From assembly GCF_014174355.1 (NCBI RefSeq), contig NZ_JABEQF010000018.1, positions 1 to 64,000 on the forward strand: a DNA stretch of 64,000 nt. Direction: 5' to 3'. The first letter of the stretch is position 1, and each line of letters starts with the position of its first letter. Both the position numbers and the translations under genes were made by a program. The notes beneath the pieces were generated by a model. The model saw only the letters and a program-made list of their open reading frames with translations, was not told the DNA's origin and made no database searches. The DNA is from Gluconacetobacter azotocaptans. GTDB taxonomy: Bacteria > Pseudomonadota > Alphaproteobacteria > Acetobacterales > Acetobacteraceae. Below, one piece after another: positions 36,709 to 63,063 of this stretch.

Positions 36709-36775
36709 CCGGGGTCACCGCCCCGCCACACTACATCACGCCCACACCACATCCCGCCTGACACAAGGACCCCGC

Positions 36776-38245
36776 ATGACCGGCCTTGCCCGCTACCGGA
36801 CCGAATGGTTCGGCAACGTGACCCGCGACATCCTGGCCGGCATGGTCGGCACCTTCGCCCTGATCCCCGAGGTCATCGCCTTTTCCTTCGTCGCCGGCGT
36901 CGACCCCGAGGTCGGGCTGTATGCCTCGTTCGTCATCAGTGTCGTCATCGCCTTTGCCGGCGGACGCCCGGGCATGATCTCGGGGGCCGCGGGATCGGTG
37001 GCGCTGGTGGCGGCGGCCCTGGTCCGAGCGCATGGCGTGCAGTACCTGCTGGCCGCGACCCTGCTGGCCGGGGCGTTGCAGATGCTGGCCGGGGCACTGC
37101 GGCTGCATCTGCTGATGCGCTATGTCTCGCGTTCGGTACGCACGGGGTTCGTCAACGCGCTGGCGATCCTGATCTTTTCGGCGCAGTTGCCCCACATGAT
37201 GCATGTCACCTGGCATACCTATGCCGCGATCGCGCTGGGTCTTGCGATCATCTACGGCGTGCCGCGCCTGTTCAGCGCCATTCCCTCGCCGCTGATCTGC
37301 ATCGTGGTGCTGACCGTGGTGGCGTCGGTCTGGCACGCGCCGCTGCACACCGTCGCCGACCTGGGGCGCCTGCCCGACAGCTTGCCGCATCTGGTCTGGC
37401 CCCAGGTGCCGCCGACACTTGCGACCCTGGACATCATCCTGCCCTATGCGGCGGCCATGGCGATGGTCGGCCTGCTGGAATCGATGATGACCGCCAGCGT
37501 CGTCGACGACATGACCGAAACCCACAGCAGCAAGCGTACGGAATGCGTGGGGCTGGGCGTCGCCAACATCGCCGTCGGCCTGTTCGGCGGCATCGCCGGG
37601 TGCGGCATGATCGGCCAGACGGTCGGCAACCTGCGCTATGGCGGGCGCGGGCGGCTGTCGACCTTCGTCGCCGGGGCGTTCCTTCTGCTGCTGATGGTGG
37701 CGTTGCGGCCGTGGGTGGCACGGGTGCCGGTCGCGGCCCTGGTGGCCATCATGATCATGGTGTCGGCCAGCACGTTCTCATGGTCGTCGCTGCGCGACCT
37801 GGGCACCCATCCCGCGACCGCCAGCCTGGTCATGCTGGCGACGGTGGCGGTCGTGGTCGCGACCCACGACCTGGCGGCCGGGGTGCTGGTGGGCGTACTG
37901 CTCAGCGGCCTGTTCTTCGCGTTCAAGGTGTCGCGGATGGTGACGGTCGACAGCATGTACGACGCGGCCCGCGATACGCGCACCTATCGCGTGGCCGGGC
38001 AGATCTTCTTCGCCTCGTCCGACCTGTTCACCGACCAGTTCGACACGCGCGACAGCGCCCGCCATGTGCAGATCGACCTGCGGCAGGCGCATTTCTGGGA
38101 CATCACCGCCGTCGGCGCGCTGGAAGAGGTCGTCGCCCGTCTTGAACGGCACGGAATCGCAGTCGAACTGATCGGCCTCAACGCCGCCAGCGCCACCCTG
38201 ATCGACCGCCATTCGGCGCTGGAGGTCCCGGCGACCTCATCATAG
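36776..38245 (+). CDS. SulP family anion transporter with STAS domain
   Basis: A 489-residue membrane protein. The SulP domain has about eleven hydrophobic helices, with the family signature [26 protein letters not shown] near residue 25 and [34 protein letters not shown] is the conserved helix-7/8 region. A short STAS domain (about 400-489) follows, ending in [24 protein letters not shown]. The substrate could be sulfate, bicarbonate or a dicarboxylate; there is no carbonic anhydrase or cys gene nearby to decide. Confidence 0.9.
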
Positions 38246-38252
38246 CTGGGGT

Positions 38253-39098
38253 CTATGTTCTGGGTGGCGGCTCGGCGAACGGATCCGACCCCACCGCCGG
38301 CAGGACGCCGGCCGTCGCGGGGGTGCCCAGTGCCCGCGCGCTCTGTGCGGCCCGAAGCGACAGCGCCGCCGCGCCGCCGGCATCCCCGGCCAGGCCCGCC
38401 GCCCGCGCCGCGAGCGTCAGCGCCCGCGCCATGCCGCGATAATCCACAATCCGCCGTCGCAGGCCGGCCGCGTGCTGCGCCAGTTGGCGCGCCTGCCCGG
38501 GATCGGCCGTCAGCAGCAGGCGGGCGCGCAGTTCGTCCTCGTCCGCCTGCCATTTGTCAGGGACCGGGCGCGTGTGCGCCAGATGCCGGGCGGTAACGGA
38601 CAGGGTCGCACGGTCGCCCCGCGCATCGGCAATCAGCCCGGTCAGCAGGCTGGCCTGCTCGGCCACACCGGGGTCGGCGACATCCATCGCGCCGGCTGCC
38701 AGGGGGGCGGCCTCGGCATCGCGCGACAGGCGATGCAGCGCCGCCGCCTGCACCAGGTCCAGTTCCGCGTCGCCGCCGTTTCGCTCCCGGACCGCCAGCG
38801 CCGCGCGCGTGGCCGCCACGGTGGACAGCGCATCGGCCGGCCTGTCCTGCGCCAGTTGCACCACGGCCAGATTATATCCGGCATCCCCGATCGCCCCGGC
38901 ATCGTCGCGCGCCAGGGCGCGGGTCCCGGCCTGCCGGTACTGGCCCTCGGCCACCGACAGCCGGTCCAGTTCGGCGGCCTGGCGGGCCGCATCCATCGAC
39001 TGGTTCAGGGTGTCGTCCCGCGGCGGCGCGACACCGCCGCCACCGCACCCGGCAAGAACCACGGACAGCGCCGCGATCGTCAGGCACACCCCCTTCAT
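38253..39098 (-). CDS. Lipoprotein, last gene of the Mla-like operon
   Basis: A 281-residue protein with a lipoprotein signal: MKGVCLTIAALSVVLAGCGGGG, lipobox LAGC, so the cysteine is at about residue 17. The rest is Ala-rich and helical, with repeated LARD/ALAR and LGT-type helices that look like tetratricopeptide-like repeats. No named domain is seen. It overlaps the MlaD-like gene by 4 nt, so it is part of the same transcript and may act as the periplasmic or outer-membrane partner of the MCE complex, in the way auxiliary lipoproteins do in other MCE systems. Confidence 0.65.
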   Translation of the reverse strand: MKGVCLTIAALSVVLAGCGGGGVAPPRDDTLNQSMDAARQAAELDRLSVAEGQYRQAGTRALARDDAGAIGDAGYNLAVVQLAQDRPADALSTVAATRAALAVRERNGGDAELDLVQAAALHRLSRDAEAAPLAAGAMDVADPGVAEQASLLTGLIADARGDRATLSVTARHLAHTRPVPDKWQADEDELRARLLLTADPGQARQLAQHAAGLRRRIVDYRGMARALTLAARAAGLAGDAGGAAALSLRAAQSARALGTPATAGVLPAVGSDPFAEPPPRT

Positions 39099-40054
39099 GG
39101 CTGGATCTTTCCGGCCGGCAGGCGTCGTGACGTGGGCGCCGAAGCGCTGCTGCCACCCAGCAGCCACAGGCCGCGCAACTGATCGGTCAGCTTCTGCAGG
39201 CTGGCCGCCGTCACCTGCGCCTGCGTCAGCAGCACCGGTAATTCGGCCGACGTTTCCTGCAGATTGCGGGTGATCGCCGGAAGGCGCGGGCTGGCCTTGC
39301 GCAGGTCGCCGGTCGCGGCCCGGACGTTGGCCATGCTGGCGTCGGCCTTGGCCATCAACGCCGACATCTGGCGTTCCACCGGGGCCAGCTGGGCGATGGC
39401 GTCGTTCAGCGCCGCGACCGTCTTTTCCGCCTGGCGGATAAGCTCGTCGTTGGTCATCAGGCGGCCCACGGTGCCCTTGCCGGCGTGCAGGTCGGTGATG
39501 GTGCTGTCCAGTTGCGACATCATGTGCTGCGCGCTGTCCAGCACGGGCAGGATCCGGCTGCGGATATCGGCGAAGGTCTGCGTGACCATGTCCGCCGGGT
39601 TGGGCGCGTTGTGCGCGGTGACGACGGCGTAATGCCAGTCCATCTCCTGCCCGGTGCCACGGCTGATATCGATATAGTTCGCGCCGGCCACGACGAAGCG
39701 CTTGCGAATGACGGCGGTGCTGTCGCGCCGGATATAGGGTTCGATCTCCGGATCGATTTCGGCCACCGCGTACATGCCGCCCGACGGATTGATCCGGATG
39801 CGGCGGATATTGCCGGCATGAATGCCCAGCACCTCGATATCGTCACCGATGGACAGGCCGCTGACCCCGACGTCTGGCAGGACGATCCGCAGCCGGCCCT
39901 CCGGCGTCAGCCAGTCCCGCAGGACGCCTGCCTCGATGATCGCGGCGAAGCAGATCACCAACGACAGCAGCACGAGCACCCCGACCCATTCGTCGGCATA
40001 GCGCACCCGCACGAGCTGCCGTGCCAGGTCGGTTTTCTGATCCTGGGCCATCAT
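39095..40054 (-). CDS. MlaD-like MCE-domain protein
   Basis: A 319-residue protein anchored by one N-terminal helix (WVGVLVLLSLVICFAAIIEAGVL, about 23-45). One MCE domain follows: LPDVGVSGLSIGDDIEVLGIHAGNIRRI and a later VAGANYIDI beta strand. From about residue 150 a long helical region with many polar heptads (DIRSRILPVLDSAQHMMSQ and on) suggests coiled-coil needle or barrel formation, as in longer MCE proteins. The gene overlaps the ATPase-like gene and the lipoprotein gene by 4 nt each. Confidence 0.8.
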   Translation of the reverse strand: MMAQDQKTDLARQLVRVRYADEWVGVLVLLSLVICFAAIIEAGVLRDWLTPEGRLRIVLPDVGVSGLSIGDDIEVLGIHAGNIRRIRINPSGGMYAVAEIDPEIEPYIRRDSTAVIRKRFVVAGANYIDISRGTGQEMDWHYAVVTAHNAPNPADMVTQTFADIRSRILPVLDSAQHMMSQLDSTITDLHAGKGTVGRLMTNDELIRQAEKTVAALNDAIAQLAPVERQMSALMAKADASMANVRAATGDLRKASPRLPAITRNLQETSAELPVLLTQAQVTAASLQKLTDQLRGLWLLGGSSASAPTSRRLPAGKIQP

Positions 40055-40746
40055 ACCCCCCGCATGACGAAAAGGCCTTCGTCGAGAAGGCGCAGATGGA
40101 CATTCACCGCCTTGCGGTATTCGTACCAGATCGAGGCATTCCGTGCGAACCACACCACTGCTGCCCCCCGGTCCCGCGCAGCCGTCACGGCTTCGAGGAA
40201 CGGCAGCATCGCATCGGGCGGCAGGGTGTCGGACACATCTTCCAGCAGCAGCAGCTCCGGCCGGCCCAGGAAGGCCCGGACGCAGGCGGCGCGCGCCAGG
40301 TCGGCGGCGGACAGCCGGCCCGGGACCGAGACCGGCAGGCCGGGAAAGCCGAAGGCTTGCCCCAGCGCCATGGCGGCATCGATCACCTCGTCGGTCGGGC
40401 GCGTGGTGTGATGCAGTTGCGGCAGCATGATGTTGAGATGCGTGCCGAACAGATCCACCCACATGCCCTGCCGGGCGATCCGCCCGATGCGCCCCCGCAG
40501 CGCGTTCAATTGCCGGTCGCCCAGGCCCTGCCAGTCCAGCCCCATGAAGCGCACCGATCCCGCGGCCAGCGGCACCATGCCGCAGCACAGGTCGGCAAAC
40601 AGCGTCGCCCGGCGCGGGTCGCGGCATTCGATGACGGCCGAGTCGCCGGGCATCAGCCGCAGGTCGAAGGGCACCGGCGCCAGGCCGCTTTCGTCGAACG
40701 ACGGCAGGGCCGCGCGAAGCTCCAGCATCGGGCCGCTCGTCGCCAT
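40051..40746 (-). CDS. Degenerate ABC ATPase-like subunit (MlaF position)
   Basis: A 231-residue protein with the overall layout of an ABC ATPase but without its catalytic motifs. At the Walker A position (about 40-48) it reads ECRDPRRAT in place of GxxGxGK(S/T); there is no lysine in the loop. The signature is LSAAD (145-149) instead of LSGGQ, the Walker B end reads LLLLED with Glu then Asp exchanged, and the switch histidine position reads WFARN. The Q-loop glutamine (ARQG) seems kept. It lies between the MlaE-like permease and MlaD-like genes exactly where MlaF would be. It should bind nucleotides poorly or not at all; a structural, regulatory or ATP-independent role is inferred. Confidence 0.75.
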   Translation of the reverse strand: MATSGPMLELRAALPSFDESGLAPVPFDLRLMPGDSAVIECRDPRRATLFADLCCGMVPLAAGSVRFMGLDWQGLGDRQLNALRGRIGRIARQGMWVDLFGTHLNIMLPQLHHTTRPTDEVIDAAMALGQAFGFPGLPVSVPGRLSAADLARAACVRAFLGRPELLLLEDVSDTLPPDAMLPFLEAVTAARDRGAAVVWFARNASIWYEYRKAVNVHLRLLDEGLFVMRGV

Positions 40747-40749
40747 CGC

Positions 40750-41628
40750 TCAGAACTCCAGGCTGAACAGGATATTGACGGTCATCACCAGCATAATCCC
40801 GCGCGCGAAGCCGCGCGGCATGATCGTGGCAACCGTGTCGTCCTGGCTGACCAGCAGCCCGGTCATGCACGACCCCAGCCCGACGAAGAATCCGACCAGG
40901 ATGAACTTCAGGGGAATGACCAGAAAATCCCATGCCGACATCGCCGTCAGGACATCGGAAAAGAACGTCCAGACCGACATGTTCATCACGCCGGTCGCAT
41001 GCGTCACGATGAAGCCCATCAGCAGGGAAATCAGGGCGAAGATGATCCCCAGCGTGAAACCGCCCAACGTGAAGGCGAAGGTCCGGGGCATCACCAGCAC
41101 CAGGAACGGATCGATGCCCTGCGCCTGCATGGCGCGGATCTGCCCCCCCAGGGTCAGCAGGCCGATTTCGGTCAGCGACAGCATGCCGCTGCGGCCCAGC
41201 AGGATGATGCCGACCAGGACCGGGGCGATTTCACGCACCAGCACCGATACCAGGATCGACCCCGTCATCTGCGCCATGCCGGCGAACCCCAGCCAGTAGG
41301 CGGCCTGCGACACCACCGTCAGGCCGGCCAGCGTAGCGGTGAAGACGGTGCTGAGAAACCCGCCCGCCACCACCTGGCGCAGGCTGAGCCGGAATTCGTA
41401 GCGGACGGTCCGACGCCACGAATTGGGACGCACGCTTTCGCGCAGCACCCCCCATCCGGCGCCGATCAGGACCAGCGCGAAACGGACCTGATGGCGCGTG
41501 ATGCGCCCGATCCACGCCAGCGGCGTCCTGGCCCGGCCGCACCAGGCCAGGATCCGGCGCCGGATCGACCCGTCCGGCGTTCCGTCGGGGGCCGCCTGTC
41601 CGGGCTGCGTGGCGGCTCCATCCGTCAT
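40750..41628 (-). CDS. MlaE-like permease
   Basis: About 292 residues; an integral membrane permease of the MlaE type, with hydrophobic segments near 115-135, 145-170, 190-215 and 240-285. The family core is recognisable as ILLGRSGMLSLTEIGLLTLGGQIRAMQAQGIDPFLVLVMPR, but the normally strict GRSGS...AE.G.M..TEQ..AL pattern has changes. Start: ATG within TGATG at the end of the cyclase-like gene, with AGGA eight bases upstream. Three nucleotides separate it from the ATPase-like gene. Confidence 0.75.
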   Translation of the reverse strand: MTDGAATQPGQAAPDGTPDGSIRRRILAWCGRARTPLAWIGRITRHQVRFALVLIGAGWGVLRESVRPNSWRRTVRYEFRLSLRQVVAGGFLSTVFTATLAGLTVVSQAAYWLGFAGMAQMTGSILVSVLVREIAPVLVGIILLGRSGMLSLTEIGLLTLGGQIRAMQAQGIDPFLVLVMPRTFAFTLGGFTLGIIFALISLLMGFIVTHATGVMNMSVWTFFSDVLTAMSAWDFLVIPLKFILVGFFVGLGSCMTGLLVSQDDTVATIMPRGFARGIMLVMTVNILFSLEF

Positions 41629-43985
41629 CACCGCCGTCCTGCCAGGACATAGGTGCGGGTCATCCCCGCCTGCGGCACGAAGAACCGCCCCCGTTCACGG
41701 AACAGGAAACGCTGCCGCAGGATCAGGTAGACCTCCTCGGTCACCTGGATGGTGCCGACGTCCGGCGCCCCCTGCGCCATCATCTCGGCCATGCCGATGG
41801 CATCGCCCCACAGGTTGAAGACCTTCGGGTCCTGACCCAGCAATCCGCCGAATACCGGCCCCACGTCGATTCCCATGCGGAAGACCGGCTCCAGGTCCGC
41901 CTTGGCCAGGATGGACAGCGAGGCCTCGCGCATGGCCAGCGCGGCGTTGGCCATGCGCTCGGCCGCACCGGGGTCGGGCGTGCGGGAACATCCCGCGACG
42001 CAGACCAGCCGGTGCCCCAGCATCTTGATCGAGTACAGTCCGCATTGACGCGCCACACCCTGCAACTGCGTGGCCAGCCCTTCCACCAGCGCCAGGACGG
42101 TCGCAGGCTCCCGATGCGACGACGTGATCATGTCCGAGAACGTGATGACCATGACGGCCACCGCCGGAAACAGCCCCTCCGGCACGGCGCCCGCCCCGTC
42201 CAGCGACCCCGGCGGGACCAGGAACCCGTCCCCGAACGCATGGTCCGCTTCCTCGGGCCGGGGTTCGTTCGCCAGTTCGTCGGCCGCCGCCGCCACCGCG
42301 CTATAATGCTGGGCGGCGAAGCGTGCCGCCACCACGCTCGCCATCATCGTCACGAAATGCGGCACCTGCCCCACGCGCGGCGCGTCCTCCAGCGTTATCA
42401 CGCCGACCGGCCCCGACGCCCCCACCACCGGCGCCAGGAACAGGCCCCGGCTGCCGAAGGTGCGCATGAACAGGCGGTAGAAATTGGCCGTGCGCGGATC
42501 GTTTCCGGCATCGTCCACGCTGATGGCGTCGCCGTGTGCCACCGCATCGAAAAAGGCGGTGAGGTCGTTGCGCGACAGTTCGAACCCGCCGGAATGGGCG
42601 TCATGCCGCGAATCGTAGCTGTCGACGCACAGCAAGGTCGCCCCGTCATGCATGATCCGCCAGACCGCCGCCCGCCGTGCCGACGCCAGTTCGGCCAGGC
42701 TGCGCGTCAGGATCAGGGCCTCGTCCGTCGGGTCGAACAGCTCGGGATAGGCCGCGACCCGCTGCAGGACCTGGCTTTCATATCCGGAAACGGCCTGGAA
42801 ACGTTCCAATTCCCGCGTCACATGGTCGGTCCGGCGGCCCTGGCGGAACAGCAGCGCGCCCAGCAGCATCGCCAGCAGCACGATCAGCAGAGAGAACATA
42901 AGATTCTGTCGGCCATCCACCATCGCGAAACCGGCGAAATCGCTTTCCGGCGCGACCAGCAGCAGCACCCATTTCTGCGCCGTCGCCGGCAGCGCCGCGG
43001 CGATGGTGACGAAATTGCGCTTGCGGCTGCGGACTGTATGGGGGCCGTAGCCCTCGACCCGATAGGCGTCGAAGGCCCCGGCCAGGACCGGATAGGTCTG
43101 GGGGTCGATCGTCATCTTCGACGGGTCCCACCCTGCGGCCTTCGCGATGTCGGCCATGCGGCGGCCGGCCAGCAAATGCCCGTCCTGGTCCACGATCAGG
43201 GCATGGCCGCTCTGCCCGATCTTCAGCGAATCGAGGAAATTGGTCAGTTCGTTCATCGACAGGTTGATCGCGAAGACATATTTGCGACCATTCAACCCCT
43301 GATAGGCGATCGATGCGGTGATGATCATCTGCCCGGTCTGCGCGATCAGGTAGGGCGCGGTCCAGAACAGCTGGCCCGACTGCATCGCACCCGTATACCA
43401 GGGGCGCGTGCGCGGATCGTAATTCGCCGCCGTGTTGCTTTCGGTCCGCAACGGCTTGCTCTGCGCGTCGAAGAACTGGTGCGTGAACTGCGCCGCCGCC
43501 CCTTCGCCGGTCAGTTCGGTGGTCTCCAGCCCCTTGCCGTTGGGATCGCGTTCGATCAGGCTGAAATGGCCCTCGGTGTCCGCCAGATAGAAGGAATGGA
43601 TCTGCGGCACGTGCCGCAACATGCTGCCGCCATAGGCGTTGAAGATCTTGCGGACGGCGGTCTCCGGCCCGTGTTCCAGCATGTCGCGGGCGATGACGGC
43701 CCCGGACGACGCGGGGGCCAGGTAATCGCCCACTTCCTGCGCGATATAATTCTGCTGGCTGGTCAGCAGGTCATGGGTCAGCCCCAGCGCGCCGCTGCGA
43801 ATCGTGCGGTAGGAATGAAAGCCGATCCCCGCGATGACCGCGATCACCAGGACAACGCCCAGGACCGGAACCCCGATGTGGAGCAGGAAGCGCCTGACCC
43901 GATCCGAATGGGCGGCGGCGGGATCCACAATCTCGTCAGCGGCCAATGATATCTTCCCGATCTGGTAGAGATACCGCCCCACCAT
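41628..43985 (-). CDS. Membrane sensor with dCache, GAF and degenerate class III cyclase domain
   Basis: A 785-residue protein. The first TM helix (FLLHIGVPVLGVVLVIAVIAG) is followed by a periplasmic double-Cache-like domain, which includes NYDPRTRPWY and LIVDQDGHLLAG, and a second TM near residue 365. A GAF-like domain (about 395-570) precedes a C-terminal class III nucleotide cyclase fold (about 605-785). The first metal aspartate is present (SDM), but the second lies in GHR instead of GDA, the transition-state Asn and Arg are replaced (GDAIGMAEMM for GDxVNxAxRM), and the base-selecting Asp is Asn (FNLWGD). The domain is therefore probably inactive. Its operon position with the Mla-like genes suggests it senses a ligand and controls them. 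Confidence 0.75.
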   Translation of the reverse strand: MVGRYLYQIGKISLAADEIVDPAAAHSDRVRRFLLHIGVPVLGVVLVIAVIAGIGFHSYRTIRSGALGLTHDLLTSQQNYIAQEVGDYLAPASSGAVIARDMLEHGPETAVRKIFNAYGGSMLRHVPQIHSFYLADTEGHFSLIERDPNGKGLETTELTGEGAAAQFTHQFFDAQSKPLRTESNTAANYDPRTRPWYTGAMQSGQLFWTAPYLIAQTGQMIITASIAYQGLNGRKYVFAINLSMNELTNFLDSLKIGQSGHALIVDQDGHLLAGRRMADIAKAAGWDPSKMTIDPQTYPVLAGAFDAYRVEGYGPHTVRSRKRNFVTIAAALPATAQKWVLLLVAPESDFAGFAMVDGRQNLMFSLLIVLLAMLLGALLFRQGRRTDHVTRELERFQAVSGYESQVLQRVAAYPELFDPTDEALILTRSLAELASARRAAVWRIMHDGATLLCVDSYDSRHDAHSGGFELSRNDLTAFFDAVAHGDAISVDDAGNDPRTANFYRLFMRTFGSRGLFLAPVVGASGPVGVITLEDAPRVGQVPHFVTMMASVVAARFAAQHYSAVAAAADELANEPRPEEADHAFGDGFLVPPGSLDGAGAVPEGLFPAVAVMVITFSDMITSSHREPATVLALVEGLATQLQGVARQCGLYSIKMLGHRLVCVAGCSRTPDPGAAERMANAALAMREASLSILAKADLEPVFRMGIDVGPVFGGLLGQDPKVFNLWGDAIGMAEMMAQGAPDVGTIQVTEEVYLILRQRFLFRERGRFFVPQAGMTRTYVLAGRR

Positions 43986-44095: not shown

Positions 44096-44776
44096 TCAAC
44101 CTGTCCAGATCGGTTCCTTGATCTTTTCCAGGAAGCGCGCGTGCGCCGACAGTTCGCCGGCTGTCGGCACGATCGGGCGCGGCGACCGCTGGGCGGCATA
44201 GTCGTAGGTATAGGATACCTGGGCGGTGCCCCCATCCTGCACCGCCAGCCCCAGCCCGCGCTGGCGGCCGCCCATCAGTTCCAGATAGACTTCGGCCAGC
44301 AGGCGGCAATCCAGCAGGGCATTATGGGTGGTGCGGGCCGACAGATCGATGGAAAAGCGCCGGCACAGCGCATCCAGACTGTTCGGCAGGCCCGGATAGC
44401 GTTCGCGCGCGATGTCCAGCGTGTCGACCATGCGGTCCAGCGACAGCGGCGGCCGCTGCACGCGCTTCAGTTCGGCATTCAGGAAGCCGAAATCGAACCG
44501 CGCATTATGGGCGATCAGTTCGTCTTCCCCGATGAACTCCAGGAAGGCGTCGGCGATGTCCACGAATTTCGGCTTGCCCTCCAGATCCGCCAGCGTGATG
44601 CCATGCACCCGCGACGCCTCCTCGGGGATGTCACGCTCGGGATGGACCAGCACATGGTAATGCTGGCCGGTCGGCAGGTCGCCGACCAACTCCAGGGCCG
44701 CGATCTCGATCACCCGGTCGCCCCGTGCAGGGTCCAGGCCGGTGGTCTCGGTATCGAACAGGATCGCCCGTTTCAT
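44096..44776 (-). CDS. dnaQ: DNA polymerase III epsilon subunit
   Basis: A 226-residue DEDDh proofreading exonuclease. Exo I is FDTETTGLDP (7-16), Exo II is LIAHNARFDFGFLN, and Exo III is THNALLDCRLLAEVYLEL. It is of standard alphaproteobacterial length with the short C-terminal region that binds the alpha subunit. It overlaps coaE by 4 nt and ends the amidohydrolase-aroE-coaE-dnaQ operon. Confidence 0.95.
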   Translation of the reverse strand: MKRAILFDTETTGLDPARGDRVIEIAALELVGDLPTGQHYHVLVHPERDIPEEASRVHGITLADLEGKPKFVDIADAFLEFIGEDELIAHNARFDFGFLNAELKRVQRPPLSLDRMVDTLDIARERYPGLPNSLDALCRRFSIDLSARTTHNALLDCRLLAEVYLELMGGRQRGLGLAVQDGGTAQVSYTYDYAAQRSPRPIVPTAGELSAHARFLEKIKEPIWTG

Positions 44777-45402
44777 CCGCTATTCCCCTCGCGTTTGCAT
44801 GTTCGCGCGTCATCCGTCCGGCGCAACCGCGCGATCAGGCGCCTGACCCGCCGCGTCGTGTCGCCACGCGACAGGCCGGTCAGGATGACATCGTCGGCGC
44901 GCCGCCGCTTCTCGCGGTCCGGCATCTGCCGCGCGATGACCGCCTTGACCTGCTCGGGCGCCATCTTGCGCCGGCGGCGGACACGATAGGTCTGCACGTC
45001 CACGGGCGCCGAAACGACCACCACCCGGTCGCACGCCCGATCGCCGCCCGTTTCAAACAGCAGCGGCACGTCCAGCACCGCCCAGCGATGGCCCGACCGC
45101 CGCGCCCGGGCCAGGAAGCGCGCGCGTTCCTGGCGGACCAGCGGGTGGATGATCCCTTCCAGCCCCGCCATCAGGGCCGGGTCGCCGATCACCGCCCGGC
45201 GCAGGGCCGCACGATCCAGCACGCCATTCGAGACGGAGCCGGGCACCAGACGGGCAATGGCCGGCAGCGCCCGCCCGCCCGGCGCCTGCAGCGCATGGAC
45301 CACGGCATCGGCGTCGAACACCGGAAACCCAGCCCCCCGCAGCAGGCGCGCCACGGTCGATTTTCCCATCCCGATCCCGCCGGTCAGGCCCAGGACCCGC
45401 AT
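44773..45402 (-). CDS. coaE: Dephospho-CoA kinase
   Basis: A 209-residue P-loop kinase performing the last step of coenzyme A synthesis. LGLTGGIGMGKSTVARLL contains the Walker A, followed by DADAVVHAL and VLDVPLLFETG. One nucleotide from aroE and 4-nt overlap with dnaQ. The chosen ATG (MRVLGLTGG) is the family start; an upstream in-frame start would lie inside aroE. The C terminus is unusually basic. Confidence 0.94.
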   Translation of the reverse strand: MRVLGLTGGIGMGKSTVARLLRGAGFPVFDADAVVHALQAPGGRALPAIARLVPGSVSNGVLDRAALRRAVIGDPALMAGLEGIIHPLVRQERARFLARARRSGHRWAVLDVPLLFETGGDRACDRVVVVSAPVDVQTYRVRRRRKMAPEQVKAVIARQMPDREKRRRADDVILTGLSRGDTTRRVRRLIARLRRTDDARTCKREGNSG

Positions 45403-45403
45403 G

Positions 45404-46258
45404 TCAGCCCGCCAGATCGGCGTCGAGCAGCGCCTGGAGTTCGGCATCCACCACCGGATCGACGCCGAACCATTCCCGAAAGCCCAGCCGCGCCTGGTGC
45501 AGCAGCATGCCCAGCCCGTCCACCGTCGGCAATCCACAGTCCCGCGCGGCGCGCAGCAGCGGCGTCATGCGCGGGACATAGACGATGTCGCAGACGGCCA
45601 TGCCGTCCGGCGCCCGCGCCAGGCTGGGCGCGAACAGGTCGTCCGGCCCGCCATGCATGCCCAGCGACGTCGTGTTCACCAGCGCGGCGTAATCCAGCAG
45701 GCTGTCTTCCCACCGCGCCCAGTCGACGATCGTGATGCCGTCCAGCATCCCGGCCAGGGCCTCGGCCCGGCCGCGGGTCCTGTTGGTGACGGCGACCGGC
45801 ACACCCCGGTCCAGCAGGCTGGCCGCGATGGCCCGCGCGGCCCCTCCCGCCCCCAGCAGCAGGACGGGCCCCCGCGTCACGTCGACGCCGTGCGCTTCCA
45901 GATTGGCGACGAACCCGTCGCCGTCGGTCGAATGCGCCTCGATCCGTCCATCGGCGGCGAACACCAGCGTGTTGACCGACCCCGACCGCTGGGCCGACCG
46001 GTGCAGGGTGTCGGCGATGGCGAACGCCGCCTCCTTGTGCGGGATGGTCACGTTGGCGCCACGGAATCCGGCGGCCTGCAGGCCCCGGATTGCGGTCTCG
46101 AACAGGCCGGGCCGAACCGGCAGGGGCACGTACGCCCCGTCGATGCCATGCCGCGCCAGCCAGAAATTATGCAGCAGGGGCGAACGGGAGTGCGCGACCG
46201 GCCAGCCGATGACACCGGCCAGCATCGTGCGGCCGGTCAGGGTAGGACGCGCGCTCAT
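45404..46258 (-). CDS. aroE: Shikimate dehydrogenase
   Basis: A 284-residue NADP-dependent enzyme of aromatic amino acid synthesis. VIGWPVAHSRSPLLHN is the shikimate-binding start, then NVTIPHKE, the Rossmann LLLGAGGAARA with NRT nearby, NTTSLGM and DGLGMLLHQA. Start ATG overlaps the stop of the upstream amidohydrolase gene (ATGA). Catalytic Lys is in IPHKEAA. Confidence 0.93.
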   Translation of the reverse strand: MSARPTLTGRTMLAGVIGWPVAHSRSPLLHNFWLARHGIDGAYVPLPVRPGLFETAIRGLQAAGFRGANVTIPHKEAAFAIADTLHRSAQRSGSVNTLVFAADGRIEAHSTDGDGFVANLEAHGVDVTRGPVLLLGAGGAARAIAASLLDRGVPVAVTNRTRGRAEALAGMLDGITIVDWARWEDSLLDYAALVNTTSLGMHGGPDDLFAPSLARAPDGMAVCDIVYVPRMTPLLRAARDCGLPTVDGLGMLLHQARLGFREWFGVDPVVDAELQALLDADLAG

Positions 46259-47055
46259 ACGGTATGACGCGCCCAGGCCTGGGGCAGCACCCGGGCCAGG
46301 CGGTCCGCCCATTCGCGCTGGCCGCGCGCATCCGCCACCAGATCCTGCCGGATTTCCAGCTCCACATAGGCCAGGCCGTTGCGCTCGGCATGGACGGGAA
46401 TCGTGTAGTCGCTGCCGTCGGTCAGGGCATAGGGCTCGTTGTCGCCGACCAGCAGGCCGCCTTCCTGCTCCAGCAACGATCTGACGATCAGGCCGAAGCG
46501 CGGCGCGCGGTTATGCAGCACCCCGGCATGCCACGGCCGGGGCATGCCACCCATCTCCGGCGTGAAGCTGTGCAGGGCCACGACCACCGTGGATTGCCCG
46601 TGCCGCGCCGCCAGTTCGTCGGCGATGCGCGCGTGATAGGGACGGAAGATCTCGTCCTCGCGCCGGGCAATGTCGGCCGCGTCCAGTTCCAGATTGGCAG
46701 GCACGTCGGTCCCGTCGCTGACCCGCACGACCGAGGTCGGATGACCCGGCGCCCGATTGCAGTCGATTACCAGCCGCGAATAGACCTGCTCGATCAGGAT
46801 CGTATCCAGCCGCTCGGCCAGCAGACGGCCCATGCCCGCCATGCCGATGTCCCAGGCGATATGCCGGTCCCAGTCGGACGCCGGCACACCCAGGTCCCCC
46901 AGGCATGACGGAACCGCACGGCCCGCATGGTCGCTGAGCAGCAGGAACGGCGACGCGCCCGATCGCCCATGGACGCCGACCGGCGCCGGGTCGCGGGCGC
47001 CCAGCAGCGTCCCCGACGCCAGGCCGCCGCCACGCGGCGCGTCATCCTGTGGCAT
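46255..47055 (-). CDS. N-formylglutamate amidohydrolase family protein, copy 1
   Basis: A 266-residue protein of the FGase family. It shows LLLSDHAGRAVPS, AWDIGMAGMGR, YSRLVIDCNR, and VVALHSFTP with putative zinc-binding histidines. The last step of histidine degradation is the classical role, but no hut genes are nearby; other amidohydrolase substrates are possible. The start with GAGGA eight bases before ATG is preferred; an ATG at 47082 adds nine residues. It is the first gene of the aroE-coaE-dnaQ operon. Confidence 0.75.
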   Translation of the reverse strand: MPQDDAPRGGGLASGTLLGARDPAPVGVHGRSGASPFLLLSDHAGRAVPSCLGDLGVPASDWDRHIAWDIGMAGMGRLLAERLDTILIEQVYSRLVIDCNRAPGHPTSVVRVSDGTDVPANLELDAADIARREDEIFRPYHARIADELAARHGQSTVVVALHSFTPEMGGMPRPWHAGVLHNRAPRFGLIVRSLLEQEGGLLVGDNEPYALTDGSDYTIPVHAERNGLAYVELEIRQDLVADARGQREWADRLARVLPQAWARHTV

Positions 47056-56990: not shown

Positions 56991-57410
56991 TACCCCACAG
57001 ACATGACCCAGACGGCCTGACGATGCCGCCCAATCTGCCGCATCACCATGATTCCAGTCCGACACATGAACGTCATTTGAACTCGTCCGTGGCTGTGTCG
57101 TTACATATCGTAATAATTATCACGCGAGCACATCATGGGACGTCTGTTGATTGCCATCATCGGTGCCATTCGCATGAACCGCCTTCGCTACGGGGAATGA
57201 AGCACCCCCGACATGCAAAATGGCAGGCGAATTGCCTGATCTTCGGAATCGAAAGTTACAATTTCCAGTATTTCATGGCCGAAACAGGGCATGGCTCCCG
57301 GCTTCGAAGCGGGCCGGGATTCAACGCATGACGATGCATGCGTCGATCCGGTCGACCGCCTGGGTCACCGGATGCTGCCGGATATTCGAATGTTCGGAAA
57401 GGAAACTGGC
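56991..57410. other. Gene-free stretch between the O-antigen ligase gene and tRNA-Ser
   Basis: About 420 nt, partly AT-rich (for example ATATCGTAATAATTATCACG near 57106-57125), with no supported protein. If the ligase starts at 57065, the first 75 nt belong to it. A promoter for the ligase gene is likely in the AT-rich part. No repeat or RNA motif was recognised. Confidence 0.5.
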
Positions 57411-62911: not shown

Positions 62912-62984
62912 TGTTCACCTGACCTTTCCTGGTCGCATTCCCTGCGGCAGGGCCATTATGAAGCAGCCGCCCGGAAATCAGGAC

Positions 62985-63011
62985 AAAAAAAAGCGGTGCC
63001 AAAGCACCGCC
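62985..63011 (-). terminator. Rho-independent terminator with 8-T tract
   Basis: The - strand reads GCGGTGC, TTTG loop, GCACCGC, then TTTTTTTT. This is the clearest intrinsic terminator in the window. It ends either the candidate small RNA or transcription coming from the tRNA-Val at 63270-63344. Confidence 0.85.
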
Positions 63012-63063
63012 AAGTTTAGGGAGGAAACGTCCAAGAAGCAGCTGCACATCGCAACACTGCAAC
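62985..63063 (-). ncRNA. Candidate trans-acting small RNA with anti-Shine-Dalgarno motif
   Basis: On the - strand a TTGACA -35 element (63094-63099) lies 18 nt from TCCTAT (63070-63075). About 80 nt downstream is a clear intrinsic terminator: stem GCGGTGC/GCACCGC with a TTTG loop, followed by eight T (62985-62992). Between them, the single-stranded-looking UUUCCUCCCUAAA (63015-63027) is complementary to ribosome binding sites, a feature of several alphaproteobacterial small RNAs. No protein of note is encoded. The transcript is inferred. Confidence 0.5.

Follow-up and report, generated by a model that had tools for sequence, protein, structure and literature searches.

Can a transporter of the MlaE type do its work when the subunit in the position of its ATP-hydrolyzing motor has lost the catalytic motifs? 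The question is raised by a five-gene operon in Gluconacetobacter azotocaptans (assembly GCF_014174355.1, contig NZ_JABEQF010000018.1, positions 1 to 64,000; "the window" below means this whole stretch of 64,000 nucleotides). A first-pass annotation, made from the sequence alone, had proposed a lineage-specific MCE system with an ATPase-position subunit, here called F', that lacks normal ATP-binding cassette (ABC) chemistry. That proposal holds: the losses are conserved among relatives and the gene is under purifying selection. The operon is a real, conserved variant of the MlaE-type MCE transporters, previously undescribed as far as the searched literature shows.

Motif loss and fold of F'

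The operon and its genes, in order, are as follows.

38253-43985, minus strand: five-gene operon of the Gluconacetobacter genome, in the order receptor, E, F', D, lipoprotein
41628..43985, minus strand: P0005, Cache-GAF-cyclase-like receptor, 785 residues (transmembrane segment, dCache, transmembrane segment, GAF, class III cyclase-like domain)
40750..41631, minus strand: P0002 (E), divergent MlaE-family permease, 293 residues (Pfam MlaE, 5.2e-36)
40051..40746, minus strand: P0001 (F'), pseudo-ATPase in the MlaF position, 231 residues, assigned from motif loss and fold
39095..40054, minus strand: P0003 (D), MCE protein, 319 residues (Pfam MlaD, 4.3e-10)
38253..39098, minus strand: P0004, lipoprotein with lipobox VLAGC, 281 residues, a predicted TPR-like helical solenoid

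The genes are tightly packed, as first described: three of the four junctions are overlaps of 4 bases, and E and F' lie 3 bases apart. Within F', four positions characteristic of ABC ATPases are altered.

40603..40626, minus strand: P-loop position, residues 41-48, CRDPRRAT where GxxGxGK[ST] is expected; glycines and lysine gone
40300..40314, minus strand: signature position, residues 145-149, LSAAD in place of LSGGQ; Asp149 in 84 of 91 homologs
40237..40257, minus strand: Walker B position, residues 164-170, ELLLLED; 89 of 91 homologs have Glu (E169) as the first acid
40141..40143, minus strand: switch-histidine position, Arg202; His in 2 of 91 homologs

These are the losses listed in the first-pass annotation (the Walker A lysine and glycines, LSAAD, an altered Walker B that here reads E169/D170, and no switch histidine), and each was confirmed. 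The same losses extend throughout the family. Among 91 distinct F' homologs, counted on the core with trimmed-end repeats merged, the Walker A pattern, the Walker B (DE) pattern, and GG at the signature each occur in none; SGG appears elsewhere in two rows. The P-loop lysine is missing from its aligned column in all 90 readable homologs, and the F' of locus L070 has one lysine three residues before that column, without the glycines. Five control ATPases all retain the P-loop lysine, LSGG, and Walker B, and three of them match the strict Walker A pattern. Thus, homologs with intact Walker motifs, which the first-pass annotation had said would point to sequencing error or recent decay, are absent among the 91. 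Sequencing error is ruled out, because the same losses recur in homologs down to 33% identity, one of them from G. diazotrophicus PA1 5, whose genome is complete.

Is F' nevertheless an ABC protein? Sequence models recognize it poorly. It scores 12.6 bits against Pfam ABC_tran, below the cut-off of 25, and only 3 of 26 homologs reach an E-value of 0.001 with that model; against the NCBIfam FtsE model it scores 33 bits (cut-off 265), and against the MlaF model 17.4 (cut-off 441). Matches to the FtsE, DevA, YbbA, LolD, and MlaF models are all weak, and PDB sequence matches begin at 2.5e-5. The AlphaFold model, however, adopts the ABC nucleotide-binding fold (predicted local distance difference test score, pLDDT, 86; predicted template modeling score 0.85), and resembles the PDB structures of YbbA, FtsE, LolD, and MlaF with query template modeling scores of 0.73-0.83. 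The predicted nucleotide-binding domain fold, along with the operon context, rules out chance resemblance to ABC proteins. One earlier description was loose: the length of F' was called preserved, whereas its 231 residues compare with 263 and 270 in the intact ATPase copies of the same genome.

Selection, distribution, and age

The ratio of nonsynonymous to synonymous substitution rates (dN/dS) was estimated by the Nei-Gojobori method against 12 named relatives, with dnaQ as control. F' is under purifying selection: its values are 0.10-0.30, far from the value near 1 that the first-pass annotation had associated with decay. E, D, and the dnaQ control give similar values (0.09-0.31, 0.14-0.25, and 0.14-0.23); those of the receptor are 0.10-0.34 and those of the lipoprotein 0.22-0.36.

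Where within F' has constraint been relaxed? Mean conservation was compared between 29 intact MlaE-linked ATPases (leaving out non-MlaF ABC rows) and 50 F' family representatives; diversity is lower in the intact set, which makes part of any fall a baseline effect. Conservation falls most in the D-loop (0.98 to 0.36), the signature (0.99 to 0.53), and the P-loop (0.82 to 0.52), with the H-loop going from 0.80 to 0.55. It falls least in residues 132-144 (0.70 to 0.68) and 114-131 (0.50 to 0.49), and modestly in the post-signature helix (0.84 to 0.76) and the Q-loop/docking region (0.71 to 0.61). A clear contrast is seen at the center of the ATP site but not throughout the protein. Since the fall is centered on the ATP site and is least in the permease-facing helical part, we read the pattern as selection that would keep those parts of F' that hold the permease while freeing the ATP site. 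The residues that replace the catalytic ones, E169 and D149, are nearly fixed across the family.

The first-pass annotation had asked for the same losses in other Acetobacteraceae, and they are common there. Profiles were run on sampled, overlapping sets of 385 class, 397 family (Acetobacteraceae), and 398 phylum genomes. The F' profile, built from 26 F' sequences, matches 136 of the 397 Acetobacteraceae genomes, in 38 of 102 genera; in the class sample it matches 6 of 385, two of these from other families (G095 and G413). Family members score at least 170 bits, except for half of one split match at 129. The next matches in the phylum sample, at 75-82 bits, are ordinary ABC proteins (four genomes, along with a second place in G314): of these extra loci, L131-L134 match the Walker A, LSGG, and Walker B patterns, and L135 matches LSGG and Walker B. 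The E profile, run on the family genomes, matches 138 of 397, namely the 136 F' carriers and two fragmented assemblies, G694 and G696, in which E is found without F'. An intact F in the operon of this clade was found neither with the F' profile in class, family, and phylum nor with the E profile in the family, motifs having been read in the fetched loci only.

Gene order and neighbors are preserved, as had been claimed: the genes are collinear and share a strand in each of the 92 examined loci, 82 of which match all five genes. Among the others, six are without an adjoining receptor, a contig end cuts off the lipoprotein in three, and the last, L107, is without D and the lipoprotein.

In a permease tree of 90 rows, a branch with 100/100 support separates the 58 chosen family permeases from the 32 remaining MlaE-family rows, whose own order is unsure owing to long branches. 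The permease of G413 (L090) is placed firmly among the Acetobacteraceae rows, and that of G095 (L030/L108) with moderate support. This nesting suggests that transfer may have occurred.

In G517 (L093, 4031-8509), all five operon genes are broken or shortened between flanking frames that remain long; in another sampled species of the same genus (G058, L029), E, F', and D are open. Such joint breakage would be expected if the five genes form one functional unit.

The permease, its partners, and known systems

The permease was described at first as divergent, and it is. P0002 lies well above the cut-off for Pfam MlaE PF02405 (124.7 bits; cut-off 22.5), but below that for NCBIfam TIGR00056 (84.2 bits; cut-off 212.2). 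In MlaE, the coupling helix joins the second and third transmembrane segments and contacts MlaF, according to PMC7790496. In this region, the 58 family E rows retain only in part the residues that never vary in 29 canonical MlaE rows: in the canonical QxDAL, the Q, D, A, and L are no longer invariant, and 69% of the family rows have Arg at the D position. RE..P, GR.G, and the PR motif are retained around the coupling helix. We read the change as probable co-divergence of E with F'.

The MCE protein D has an amino-terminal transmembrane segment (hydrophobic residues 24-42), a single MCE domain at about 64-133, and a long carboxyl-terminal part. The lipoprotein P0004 has no significant Pfam match, including none to the PqiC-like domain PF03886; its homologs also carry a lipobox. 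Its model is an all-helical solenoid of 12 helices (pLDDT 85) that matches TPR chains, among them those of the pilus proteins PilF and PilW.

The receptor P0005 resembles, in its last domain, the class III adenylate and guanylate cyclases that carry Cache and GAF domains (Pfam Guanylate_cyc, 1.2e-21; dCache_1, 3e-17; GAF, 1.1e-6; hydrophobic segments at 33-51 and 362-380). In class III cyclases, the Asp that binds the second metal and an active-site Asn and Arg have catalytic roles. Alignment with solved cyclases shows all three residues replaced in P0005.

42012..42014, minus strand: His658 in the position of the second metal-binding Asp, from alignment with solved adenylate cyclases
41781..41795, minus strand: G731..M735, in which Gly731 and Met735 replace the active-site Asn and Arg, from alignment with solved cyclases

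Among 80 distinct cyclase-domain homologs, counted in the same way as for F', 5 keep the metal-2 Asp, 19 the Asn, and 3 the Arg; unlike in active class III cyclases, the three never occur together, and no homolog has even two of them. At the first-metal position, Asp is present in many rows. Judged by these residues, P0005 is a catalytically stripped cyclase, and the operon thus appears to encode two dead enzymes.

Which described system comes closest? The closest published architecture is that of Mpc, closer than Mla; the first-pass annotation had overlooked this match as well as the dead cyclase-like receptor. As described in PMC12436622, the Mpc core of Brucella abortus and other Hyphomicrobiales likewise comprises an MlaE-type permease, a subunit in the MlaF position, an MCE protein, and a lipoprotein, and its MCE protein likewise is about 320-330 residues long with an extended carboxyl-terminal part. 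Three differences stand out: MpcE has a STAS domain, whereas P0002 has no Pfam STAS match up to an E-value of 1; MpcF is described as an MlaF homolog, the ABC ATPase of a transporter that is well conserved, whereas F' is dead; and MpcA is PqiC-like, whereas P0004 is TPR-like. A fourth is the pseudo-cyclase receptor that in most F' operons lies ahead of the core.

The resemblance to MlaFEDB (PMC7790496) lies in the co-encoded MlaE-family permease, ABC subunit, and MCE protein; unlike that system, the five genes include neither MlaB nor MlaC, D is much longer than MlaD, and F' lacks the catalytic motifs. PqiABC and LetAB provide another precedent. According to PMC12436622, PqiA and LetA have no ATPase domain, so MCE systems can lack an ATPase; the F' operon is like them in having no functional-looking ATPase. 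Their membrane subunits are PqiA and LetA rather than MlaE, and they contain no ABC-fold subunit. In the open-licence PMC literature, no description was found of such an operon, including for Acetobacter or Gluconobacter, and nothing was found on a comparable pseudo-ATPase or inactive ABC subunit.

Several neighbors of the operon may be noted. A SulP-type transporter with a STAS domain (36764-38245, plus strand) is convergent with it and stops 7 bases from its last gene; a homolog is present in the fetched loci of all 12 compared relatives. Upstream, at 44096-46312 on the minus strand, lie look-alikes of dnaQ (44096-44776), coaE, and aroE, judged by eye. Elsewhere in the window are a match to the suhB/mmgR small RNA family (Rfam, 55 bits; 62978-63046, minus strand) and tRNA genes at 57407, 61416, and 63270.

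Proposed modes of action

What might such a machine do? The gene inventory, the motif loss, and the purifying selection can be read from the sequences themselves; the mechanism beyond them is one that we infer. The operon probably, in our moderately confident judgment, encodes an MCE system that transports lipids across the envelope and whose ABC motor subunit has long been a structural or regulatory pseudo-ATPase. The conserved loss of catalytic parts in both motor and sensor suggests a lipid bridge that works without burning ATP. The driving force and direction of lipid flow through MCE bridges are debated. In the proposed model, E would be the inner-membrane gate, as MlaE is, and F', on the cytoplasmic side, would bind the coupling helix of E as a fixed clamp or a regulator rather than deliver a power stroke. 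D would assemble into an MCE ring of six subunits and a helical needle, which the TPR-like lipoprotein may cap at the outer membrane. Lipid would flow down its own gradient, or be driven by something besides ATP hydrolysis at F'. The Cache-GAF-pseudo-cyclase receptor probably senses a periplasmic ligand and would signal by protein contact, making no cAMP or cGMP. A bolder version is tentative, and we lean somewhat against it: that this is an ABC-shaped machine without any ATP use, in which pseudo-ATPase and pseudo-cyclase together would make a signal-gated valve on a passive inter-membrane lipid bridge.

Several observations weigh against the pseudo-ATPase model or its parts. Lipid transport would follow from the families to which E and D belong. 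By sequence, F' is nearer the FtsE, DevA, and LolD models than MlaF, so its descent from MlaF is unsupported by sequence and the label "MlaF-like" rests on gene position. F' could bind nucleotide in an unusual way, and replacing Asp by Glu at Walker B is a mild change chemically. Conservation also falls outside the ATP site: in the carboxyl terminus (0.67 to 0.43), the amino-terminal strands (0.62 to 0.44), and residues 179-195 (0.68 to 0.52). The receptor is not beside the operon in five loci, all of one branch (L098, L099, L102, L113, and L114), that keep E, F', D, and the lipoprotein; the sixth such locus, L115, ends at a contig edge. Locus L107 (G775) has an open E-F' pair with D and the lipoprotein missing after 6746. 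Thus, neither the receptor nor the D-lipoprotein pair is strictly required. Finally, in G652 (L100, 3154-8049; an assembly that is 81% complete), only F' is open and the other four frames (receptor, E, D, lipoprotein) are broken, a poor fit to decay as one unit unless the assembly is faulty.

Could the motor instead be borrowed? An intact MlaF-type ATPase might pair with F' or displace it, leaving the transporter ATP-driven. The genome offers candidates, as the first-pass annotation had suggested should be checked: it has three MlaE loci, of which the two others have intact ATPases. Contig C3 (L126; G000:C3, 5345-6918) has an intact-motif MlaE-MlaF pair followed by a radA-like gene, judged by eye, with no adjoining MCE gene. 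Contig C5 has an Mpc-like operon encoding a 382-residue permease, an intact F, an MCE protein, and a PqiC-like lipoprotein (PF03886). The extra amino-terminal part of this permease has no Pfam STAS match up to an E-value of 0.001, so the term "Mpc-like" is based on permease length, on the set of genes, and on the lipoprotein. When D and P0004 were compared as profiles with their C5 counterparts, the probabilities were 8.8% and 3.9%, figures that say little with a single sequence on one side. MCE domains lie also at C15, C8, C6 (three in one frame), and C3:16854. Moreover, a second intact-looking MlaE is present in 37 of 38 checked carriers, a chosen set of mostly small genomes scored for MlaE alone; the exception is G517, where the canonical MlaE is broken. 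Mycobacterial Mce systems have one ATPase in common, and degenerate half-sites occur in other ABC transporters. Nevertheless, the loss in F' covers the P-loop itself, more than one half of a composite site, and E and F' co-occur in 136 of 138 genomes. A weaker argument is that an intact MlaF may not fit the diverged coupling-helix region of E. A borrowed or mixed motor is judged unlikely.

Less likely still, and in our view distinctly improbable, is that F' has become a new ligand sensor, with a rebuilt ATP site (E169, D149, and the family-specific R84 and H113) that would gate the permease without hydrolysis. The replaced and new positions are nearly fixed, beyond expectation for mere loss, but the P-loop segment is poorly conserved in the family. 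That the operon is a dying remnant can hardly be credited: the broken genes of G517 and G652 would fit, whereas retention across 38 genera, shared substitutions, and the dN/dS values do not, and the same losses across homologs with dN/dS of 0.10-0.30 rule out recent decay.

The pseudo-ATPase model thus places this operon as a natural MlaE-type system in which the motor is dead across many genera, and which separates the structural role of an ABC subunit from ATP hydrolysis. Gluconobacter and Gluconacetobacter are harmless candidate organisms in which to test it. Moreover, the pairing of pseudo-ATPase with pseudo-cyclase in a single operon would represent a striking reuse of enzyme folds beyond catalysis.

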